Shown here one piece after another: positions 59,975 through 61,868 of a DNA stretch of 64,000 bases; position 1 is the stretch's first letter, and every line of letters starts with the position of its first letter. The stretch is taken from contig NZ_LR746496.1 in assembly GCF_902729405.1 (NCBI RefSeq), positions 2,542,001-2,606,000 of the forward strand, written 5' to 3'. Made by a program: the position numbers and the translations under genes. The notes beneath the pieces were generated by a model that was not told the DNA's origin, ran no database searches, and saw only the letters and a program-made list of their open reading frames with translations. Origin of the DNA: Acididesulfobacillus acetoxydans. GTDB taxonomy: Bacteria > Bacillota > Desulfitobacteriia > Desulfitobacteriales > Desulfitobacteriaceae.

Positions 59975-60253
59975 ATGGTTCCAGCTCCTTATTCAGAAGC
60001 TAAAGAAGACCTTATTCGACGCTTGCGTAAAATTGAAGGACAGGTCAAAGGGCTGCAGCGCATGGTAGAAAATGACAAGTACTGCGTTGATGTCCTGGTG
60101 CAGGTCGCGGCGGTACGGGCGGCGATCAATAAAGTAGGGACGATCGTGTTTGAACATCATTCGCGAGGCTGTTTGCTCCAGGCGGTCGAAAACAATGATA
60201 AGGAAGGCGCCATCGAGGAACTGATTGGGGTGCTCACGAAATTTGTCAAGTAG
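59975..60253 (+). CDS. CsoR/RcnR-family metal- or thiol-sensing repressor
   Basis: A 92-residue all-helical repressor: LIRRLRKIEGQVKGLQRMVENDKYCVDVLVQVAAVRAAINKVG. The copper-type ligand set C-H-C is conserved (Cys in KYCVDVL, then HxxxC within EHHSRGC), unlike CstR-type persulfide sensors, which lack the His. In the family, ligand binding releases DNA. Here the co-transcribed gene is a thioredoxin, not a copper ATPase, so the physiological inducer is uncertain. ATG 59975 follows GAGGAGG. The operator at 59942-59956 implies autoregulation. Confidence 0.9.
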   Translation: MVPAPYSEAKEDLIRRLRKIEGQVKGLQRMVENDKYCVDVLVQVAAVRAAINKVGTIVFEHHSRGCLLQAVENNDKEGAIEELIGVLTKFVK

Positions 60254-60615: not shown

Positions 60616-60949
60616 GGGAAAACCAGGCTGGGACCGTGAACAGGGTCGCAAGATCTGTGTGCCGAGGCTCTGTTCATAAGACGAGATCAGGCGCCCCCCC
60701 GTCAAACGACTCATACGACAAGGGTGGCCCGGAACAGGTCATAATACCGGAGCGGCCAGGTACGGGTCACAATACTGGGGGTGCCCAGGCACGGTCGTAA
60801 CGCCGGGGCGCCCAGGTGCAGGTTATAATACCGGAGCAGCCAGGTACGGGTCATAACCGCAGTGCCCGGGCAGGAATGTAGAGACAGCGATGCGCTTTTC
60901 CGCACCACTGTCTTCCTTTACCCGGGATGTCAAGGCGCGGAGTCACCTC
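60616..60949. other. Intergenic region with repeat array after trxA
   Basis: 334 bp between the convergent trxA and the Cys-rich mini-gene. It is dominated by the ~28-bp repeats at 60723-60871. No clear terminator. Confidence 0.6.
60723..60871 (+). repeat. ~28-bp degenerate tandem repeat
   Basis: About five units of GCCCAGGTACGGGTCATAA plus TACCGGAGC type, of slightly varying length (25-31 bp), start near 60723, 60754, 60783, 60810 and 60839. Confidence 0.85.
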
Positions 60950-61147
60950 TCAGCGGACGGCATCCTCATAATAGGCATTAACCTTTTCGAGGACGGGCAG
61001 ACAATCCTCGCAGACGCACCAACAGGTTTTCTCGATTTTTTCTGCGGGTTCTCCTTCAACGACAAAGGTGCACATCAGTTCCGCAGGTTTTTCTTGGTGG
61101 CAGATGTCACAGGCGCTGCAGACGATCGAATGGTCAGGTTCGAGCAT
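60950..61147 (-). CDS. Cys-rich small protein of unknown function
   Basis: A 65-residue protein with eight cysteines in two clusters: CSACDIC (C-x2-C-x2-C) with a further Cys in ELMC, and CWCVCEDC (C-x-C-x-C-x2-C). The rest is acidic. The spacing suggests zinc or Fe-S binding but fits no family I know. ATG 61147 is preceded by GAGGGAGG; an in-frame ATG further upstream (61240) lacks a site. It is transcribed divergently from the CopZ-like gene. Confidence 0.7.
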   Translation of the reverse strand: MLEPDHSIVCSACDICHQEKPAELMCTFVVEGEPAEKIEKTCWCVCEDCLPVLEKVNAYYEDAVR

Positions 61148-61337: not shown

Positions 61338-61394
61338 GTCAAAAGGGATTACCCAAATGTTCTGACAAGGTAGTTTGTGGAGAAAGGGGTTCAG

Positions 61395-61802
61395 ATGCAA
61401 CTTAATCTTACGAAGTCGACGGTACCGGCTGGCGCCGGATGTCCGACCTGTGGCGCACCGGGTCAACGGGTGCGCAAGACTACGGTCGTTCATCAGGTGT
61501 TGCCGGAAATCGAGCTGCCCGCGGACGAGGAACAATATTTTCTCTGCCGTAACCCGAAGTGTGAGGTTGCCTACTTCCAGGCTGAAGGCAGAGTTTACAC
61601 ACAGGACCGGCTAAAAAACAAAATATGGTTCAAGGAAATCACGCCCCCGGTTCCGATTTGCTATTGTCTGAATGTGACCGAAGAGGAAATTCTCCACCAT
61701 GTGGCGGAGGTTCAATGCTGTTCTACGTTGGAGGATATTCAGAAACATACCGGGGCGAACACCGGGCATGAATGCCTTACCAAGAATCCGGCCGGTGGCT
61801 GA
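61395..61802 (+). CDS. CopZ-like Fe-S/zinc metallochaperone, candidate selenoprotein
   Basis: Read to the first stop, 135 residues. Zinc-ribbon-like cysteines come first (AGCPTCGAPGQ, then FLCRNPKCEVAYF), followed by a BFD-like [2Fe-2S] domain: CYCLNVTEEEIL, CCSTLEDIQKHTGANTGHECLTKNPAGG. This matches the N-terminal domain of Archaeoglobus CopZ, where the chain continues ...NPSGRCC and the final Cys pair supplies a cluster ligand. Here the codon after NPAGG is TGA and the next is TGC. If TGA is a stop, one cluster ligand is missing; if it is recoded as selenocysteine, the domain is complete (see 61800-61868). ATG 61395 follows AAGGGG. A CRP/FNR site lies upstream. Confidence 0.88.
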   Translation: MQLNLTKSTVPAGAGCPTCGAPGQRVRKTTVVHQVLPEIELPADEEQYFLCRNPKCEVAYFQAEGRVYTQDRLKNKIWFKEITPPVPICYCLNVTEEEILHHVAEVQCCSTLEDIQKHTGANTGHECLTKNPAGG

Positions 61803-61868
61803 TGCTCCGCCGTGGTGCGATCGGTGATCGCCAAGGGGTTAGCCATGCGGAGCGTGAAGAAAGAGTGA
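61800..61868 (+). other. Candidate selenocysteine TGA, SECIS-like hairpin and C-terminal extension
   Basis: After TGA (61800-61802) the same frame continues TGC and 20 more codons (CSAVVRSVIAKGLAMRSVKKE) to a TGA at 61866. The extension begins with the conserved Cys and a helix-like stretch of the kind that ends BFD domains. A hairpin 14-29 nt after the TGA has perfect 6-bp arms (GCGATC 61817-61822; GATCGC 61826-61831), a GGT apical loop, a bulged T (61816) and a further G-C pair. Loop sequence, bulged U and distance (20 nt from TGA to the loop) fit bacterial SECIS elements such as that of fdhF (18 nt). Confidence 0.6.

Follow-up and report, generated by a model that had tools for sequence, protein, structure and literature searches.

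The window analysed here is a 64,000-nucleotide stretch of the genome of Acididesulfobacillus acetoxydans, an anaerobe of the Bacillota. At 61395-61868 on its forward strand lies a frame that reads ...TKNPAGG-TGA-TGC...VKKE-TGA, in which the first TGA (codon 136, 61800-61802) directly follows NPAGG and is separated by TGC and 20 more codons from a second TGA (61866-61868), just as a first-pass annotation made from the sequence had described it. The features of the locus are listed below, with U denoting selenocysteine (Sec).

59975-60253, + strand: CsoR/RcnR-family repressor with C37, H61, H62 and C66; best NCBIfam match RicR, 75.8 bits (cut-off 175); lies near the selenoprotein gene, of which it is a putative regulator at most
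61380-61389, + strand: purine-rich stretch resembling a ribosome-binding site, ahead of ATG 61395, read from the sequence
61395-61868, + strand: predicted CopZ-N-type selenoprotein gene (zf_CopZ plus BFD-like [2Fe-2S] domain), 157 residues, Sec at 136; from the frame and Pfam and NCBIfam matches
61437-61616, + strand: zinc-type domain, zf_CopZ match, residues 15-74; C16, C19, C51 and C56 invariant in 58/58 aligned rows
61659-61805, + strand: Cys positions of the BFD-like cluster domain, C89-Y-C91, C127, then U136 and C137; from alignment and fold match
61716-61721, + strand: codons of the vicinal Cys pair C108-C109, found in all 41 Sec rows of the alignment and, by pattern, in 42/42 genes; absent from the 17 Cys forms
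61800-61802, + strand: in-frame TGA, predicted Sec codon U136; TGA in 42 genes here, Cys in 17/17 Cys homologues
61803-61865, + strand: C-terminal extension C137-E157, closing helix at 138-157 in the model; from alignment and AlphaFold2 model
61815-61832, + strand: bacterial SECIS hairpin; from comparison across TGA genes and folding

With Sec at position 136, the protein matched Pfam zf_CopZ at 70.3 bits (cut-off 28.4) and Fer2_BFD at 21.2 bits, under the cut-off of 26; its predicted fold nevertheless matches the N-terminal domain of Archaeoglobus fulgidus CopZ (2hu9) and the bacterioferritin-associated ferredoxins (Bfd), and the protein has the domain arrangement of CopZ, with zf_CopZ and a BFD-like cluster domain. 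The two NCBIfam models of the family scored it below their curated cut-offs, NF045877 (CopZ_Nterm_CU) at 115.6 bits (cut-off 190), which leaves it outside that family as curated, and NF047645 (CopZ_Nterm_CC) at 91.4 bits (cut-off 100). With NF045877, three other members of the Sec clade reached 101.7-107 bits and a Cys member (L018) 246.8 bits. Since all four scanned members with the motif GxUC lie under the curated cut-offs of both models, neither model names the GxUC form. Rfam at gathering thresholds returned nothing but a tRNA over the whole window.

The TGA codon and its hairpin among relatives

Homologues were sought in 45 genomes of the family, 82 of the class, a sample of 398 of the phylum and additional named genomes, reading through all stops and not TGA only. 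Forty-two distinct Bacillota genes, the window's included, carried TGA at this codon (25, 16 and 1 by search stage) and the next codon was Cys in every one of them (42/42). The TGA column was Cys in 17/17 Cys homologues read, i.e. an in-frame UGA stands opposite Cys, as is expected of a selenoprotein. Neither TAA nor TAG was seen at codon 136 in any full-length match among the genes read, and none of the 42 TGA and 17 Cys genes whose ends were read stopped at NPAGG; all continue. Across the TGA clade the tail is conserved, and it can be aligned with the tail that the Cys homologues translate (GKCCHQIIQDAIDKGLSMK). Past the hairpin its amino acids are kept while synonymous sites vary (41 genes), codon +13 being Leu in 38/41 TGA genes through six different codons and codon +12 Gly in 34/41 through four. 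The conservation of the UGA and its extension is thereby established by comparison, and the two outcomes that the first-pass annotation had named as damaging to its proposal, homologues ending naturally at NPAGG and a tail unconserved in relatives, did not materialise.

Counts of 41 refer to the TGA genes without L154, and a recount over all 42 covers the next Cys codon, the GGT loop, the stem pairs and C108-C109. Partial and low-scoring matches and duplicate loci of the same gene were set aside from the homologue set, and three gene remnants, a short form in G217 and G471 and the Cys gene L161, which reads GVCC, also lie outside the counts. The remnants (L158, L159 and L160, in G014, G024 and G030) keep the TGA and hairpin, and the 5' part of their frame is broken or missing. 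Three TGA genomes (G014, G022 and G024) additionally carry a Cys form, and plasmids gave 10 distant matches with 27-35% identity.

The hairpin proposed in the first-pass annotation was recovered at 61816-61831, with a bulged T at +14 (61816), arms GCGATC (61817-61822) and GATCGC (61826-61831) and a GGT loop (61823-61825); an additional G-C pair lies beneath the bulge (61815/61832). The GGT loop was present in 42/42 TGA genes and all six stem pairs in 41/42, the exception (L125) having one mismatch, against 0/17 Cys homologues with the six pairs. The hairpin codons are nearly frozen, with GTG at +5 in 41/41, TCG at +7 in 41/41 and GTG at +8 in 40/41 genes, and GTT at +5 in the 42nd gene, L154; Val and Ser codons upstream of the hairpin vary among the TGA genes. 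One pair changes from AU to GC on both sides in three genes, the window's included, all in one branch of the tree, and another from GC to UA in L154; in a shuffle test of pairs with a change on both sides, the observed level was reached by 175/500 shuffles.

The 45 nt behind the window TGA fold with a minimum free energy (MFE) of -14.4 kcal/mol, no more stable than shuffled sequences (z -0.18), and the 18-nt hairpin alone has -7.1 kcal/mol, slightly weaker than the -7.5 given for bacterial SECIS elements. RNAalifold returned the SECIS-like hairpin when started at or behind the TGA and preferred another fold on 60 columns starting before it. Because the single-sequence fold lends no support and the alignment with upstream sequence prefers another fold, we relied on comparative evidence: TGA, loop and stem are found again in relatives, which argues that the hairpin is more than chance and establishes it by comparison. 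Its GGU loop, 6-bp stem, distance of 20 nt from the UGA and 45-nt MFE also agree with the description of bacterial SECIS elements in the accessible part of PMC13188914 (apical loop of 3-9 nt, upper stem of 4-16 bp, G in the first two loop positions, 16-37 nt from the UGA, MFE of -7.5 kcal/mol or lower, the stretch for the MFE being unspecified there).

The machinery for Sec decoding, whose absence would have spoken against the first-pass reading, is complete in the organism's own genome (4.52 Mb, one contig), which encodes tRNA-Sec (selC), SelB (370.8 bits, with its neighbours in the frame), SelA (547.7 bits) and SelD (406.4 bits). The SelD gene (L106, C1:3921896-3922822) has an in-frame TGA in SGUGCK, so that SelD is itself a likely selenoprotein. 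SelB scored over its cut-off in 36/37 genomes with the TGA form, the exception, G025, being 85% complete; co-occurrence with SelB is nevertheless a weak discriminator, since it was also over the cut-off in 32/40 genomes picked as Cys-only, of which 26 were chosen as rows without TGA and the TGA column itself was read only in the rest.

On the sequence evidence of the 42 TGA genes, the conserved hairpin and the Sec machinery, UGA 136 is almost certainly decoded as selenocysteine, as had been suggested. The frame does stop at codon 136 under translation table 11, and the scores of both NCBI family models below their cut-offs would suit an ordinary stop, with a functional protein ending at G135 and a tail that is untranslated or rarely read through. 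This reading is very improbable in view of the recurrence of TGA in 42 genes with neither TAA nor TAG among full-length matches read, of a tail whose amino acids are kept past the hairpin while synonymous sites vary and which Cys homologues translate, and of the loss of C137, the likely fourth cluster ligand, that such a stop would entail; the earlier expectation stands that a protein stopped here would be without a cluster ligand and its closing helix. A decaying pseudogene or a sequencing error at codon 136 can be dismissed as exceedingly improbable: real remnants of the CopZ selenoprotein gene do occur in three other genomes, but the remaining frame of the window gene is undamaged, 42 genes drawn from many assemblies have the TGA, and downstream codon use is constrained at both the protein and the RNA level.

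Fold, cluster ligand and residues of the Sec clade

The AlphaFold2 model (pLDDT 88.8, U modelled as C) superposed on 2hu9 with Z 15.9 and an rmsd of 2.4 over 127 aligned residues (31% identity), a comparison that establishes the predicted fold. By sequence, too, 2hu9 was the best solved structure, its NPSGRCC aligning with NPAGGUC, i.e. Cys-Cys in the archaeal domain where the window protein has Sec-Cys (U136-C137). The column of the TGA being Cys in this structure as well as in 17/17 Cys genes, the proposal that Sec takes the place of the first Cys of the pair is borne out. The sequence alignment places no Cys pair of 2hu9 at C108-C109. Full-length A. fulgidus CopZ has a C-terminal copper-binding domain, and no Pfam match of that kind was found in the window protein.

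Residues 86-153 of the model matched Bfd (4e6k, 6e6r and 6e6s; Z 9.0-9.4), which has neither the zinc-type domain nor Sec. The superposition rows end at model residue 153 with chain residue 57 and at 152 with 56, an offset of 96. Cys residues are visible at positions 4, 6 and 38 of the Bfd sequence, and we take the Bfd cluster ligands to be Cys4, Cys6, Cys38 and Cys41. Because the superposition puts the usual fourth ligand at C137 (equivalent to Bfd Cys41), U136 is probably the neighbour of the ligand in the modelled structure; we infer this assignment on the premise of an ungapped last helix, since the superposition gave range ends only. This assignment refines the U-C motif next to the cluster that the first-pass annotation proposed. 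In the window protein C127 and C137 are ten residues apart, unlike the last two cluster Cys of Bfd, which form a CxxC.

The 58-protein tree gathered the 41 Sec rows into a single group (support 90/91, not starred) and left every one of the 17 Cys rows outside it; the tree carries a long-branch warning and its midpoint root serves for drawing only. This sequence-based grouping fits a single origin of the Sec form and no return to Cys within the 58-protein sample. C108, C109 and H102 were invariant in the 41 Sec rows, and neither the C108-C109 pair nor H102 occurred in any of the 17 Cys rows, one of which has a single Cys at 108. Being clade-wide, C108-C109 and H102 count as one event and give no independent evidence of coupling to Sec.

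Another frame was encountered in G217 and G471 (L162, L164 and L165), a short BFD-only frame of about 70 aa with an in-frame TGA at GTUC and without C108-C109. A match with one TGA was found in 2/35 genomes searched, and the hairpin behind the TGA of L162 (G217) differs from the CopZ-type one. This is possibly a separate selenoprotein form; since it has Sec-Cys without C108-C109, the vicinal pair is not required wherever Sec-Cys occurs.

Known forms, gene neighbourhood and proposed role

What the first-pass annotation did not have is that the GxUC form already figures among known selenoproteins, in the tables of two reviews. That of PMC9312934 (2022) contains a "(2Fe-2S)-binding protein (copper chaperone Copz family)" as form 1 and form 2, with motifs given as GxUC for form 1 and CU for form 2 in the accessible text of PMC13188914 (2026). 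The window protein, with NPAGGUC fitting GxUC, the same domain name and, by domain and fold matches, a CopZ-like Fer2_BFD domain with Sec-Cys at GxUC, corresponds to form 1 as described in the parts available of these two sources (cd10141, WP_245779778.1); no difference between the two was seen, their identity being one of name and motif. The window gene adds a member to this listed form and is not new as a kind. Form 2, represented by NF045877 (Csac_0668 family 2Fe-2S cluster-binding (seleno)protein), is the same two-domain protein, but going by the CU motif in the available text of PMC13188914 its Sec would come second in the pair, where the window protein has it first; with a CU motif, Sec would stand at the ligand itself. 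The Cys member L018 (GKCC), which scores above the NF045877 cut-off, has neither C108-C109 nor H102, unlike the window protein.

The main text of the deep-Sep paper (PMC12013277) contains no CopZ, 2Fe-2S or copper chaperone, and the main text of PMC2398784, which PMC13188914 cites for the family, no CopZ, copper, 2Fe-2S or chaperone. Among the titles listed for this family, none was an experimental study of it; the family may be treated in Haft and Gwadz 2023 or Haft and Tolstoy 2025.

Gene neighbourhoods were compared at 25 loci (24 distinct, L081 and L085 being one locus), and the set was widened to 52 upstream and 38 downstream ORFs from up to 40 loci. One downstream ORF of 39 (L093), all D2 and 26/39 U2 second neighbours were set aside, the computed upstream ORFs of the window and of Peptococcaceae bacterium CEB3 were replaced by their thioredoxin genes, and Pfam counts were drawn from pooled unrelated proteins. 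No neighbour was common to the whole Sec clade across these loci and ORFs. A MerR-family regulator lies upstream in 5/24 distinct loci. For all four of the five that were scanned the best model was the mercury MerR TIGR02051 (cut-off 150.85), with three over it at 155.4, 154.1 and 155.9 bits and one just under at 147.1, and each of the four shows Cys at spacings of 35 and 8-9, a pattern that we take to be the mercury site. At two of the five MerR loci a small gene sits between MerR and the selenoprotein gene, and the one that was read is thioredoxin-like. In the organism's own genome, no MerR exceeded the mercury cut-off. Permease genes of one cluster are present in 3/24 distinct loci, two scanned members matching SaoE and Cu/Zn-efflux models below cut-off, and ArsP_1 was matched by one upstream and one downstream ORF. 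Thioredoxin was matched by 4/52 upstream ORFs, the window's included, and LexA by seven downstream ORFs, presumably inherited synteny in related genomes of genus g39.

Upstream of the window gene lie the CsoR-family repressor and a thioredoxin gene, a layout shared by CEB3, the nearest named relative (90% identity). Between thioredoxin and selenoprotein gene the window also has a Cys-rich 65-residue frame on the reverse strand (60953-61147) without an NCBIfam match at 1e-5, and CEB3 has a similar Cys-rich frame in the same place (L080, 7364-7618). A tandem array of period 28 with 4.7 copies and 70% matches lies in the same interval of the window (60726-60856).

The explanation that, taken as a whole, we consider very probable is a cytoplasmic CopZ-N-type selenoprotein with an N-terminal zinc-type domain and a C-terminal BFD-like [2Fe-2S] domain, which would bind a zinc and a cluster and would carry a soft-metal or redox site. 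SelB and tRNA-Sec would decode UGA 136, directed by the hairpin immediately behind it, the product would run through ...NPAGG-Sec-Cys-... into the helix that closes the cluster domain, and U136 would provide a selenol adjoining the cluster ligand C137. Beside the cluster, U136-C137, possibly together with C108-C109 and H102, may form a site for Cu(I), Hg(II) or similar, or for a reversible Se-S bond, that could let the cluster domain sense, transfer or scavenge metal; any exact chemistry for U136-C137 is proposed tentatively. Functional clues from the neighbourhood are weak, as neighbourhoods are mostly not conserved; the MerR, permease, ArsP_1 and CsoR context leads us to favour, with moderate confidence, a soft-metal chaperone or detoxification role, for and against which the balance is about even.

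The main rival is a redox or electron-transfer role, plausible but somewhat doubtful, in which the selenoprotein would be a ferredoxin of the Bfd type, with U136-C137 serving as a Se-S switch, and would not handle metal. After 2hu9 the closest folds are those of Bfd, thioredoxin matches occur among the upstream ORFs, the window's included, selenoprotein families are mostly thought to act in redox reactions according to the available part of PMC9312934, and the form 2 relative Csac_0668, re-annotated as a (2Fe-2S)-binding protein, was proposed from predictions to act in hydrogen production in the portion at hand of PMC4510573. Against such a role stand the upstream MerR-family genes, mercury-type where scanned, the permease genes of one cluster in 3/24 distinct loci, with the sub-threshold SaoE and Cu/Zn-efflux matches of its two scanned members, and the homology to CopZ-N including its zinc-type domain.

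A more specific version of the soft-metal site, unlikely though worth stating, is tuned by selenium: once Hg(II), Cu(I) or an organometal had bound at Sec-Cys with C108-C109 and H102, the [2Fe-2S] cluster would be released or rearranged, making the protein a cluster-gated scavenger or chaperone that works alongside a mercury-type MerR in some hosts.

The listed, apparently uncharacterised selenoprotein form to which the window gene belongs has at least 42 members, and because the four scanned ones fall under both NCBI cut-offs, databases may carry GxUC products as truncated entries. The site would be unusual in placing a selenol next to a likely Fe-S ligand, one residue away, in a domain that also holds another vicinal Cys pair. 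If the selenium-tuned site is real, Sec would have arisen on two occasions, at adjacent positions of a single Cys pair: next to the ligand residue in form 1, and at that residue itself in form 2.
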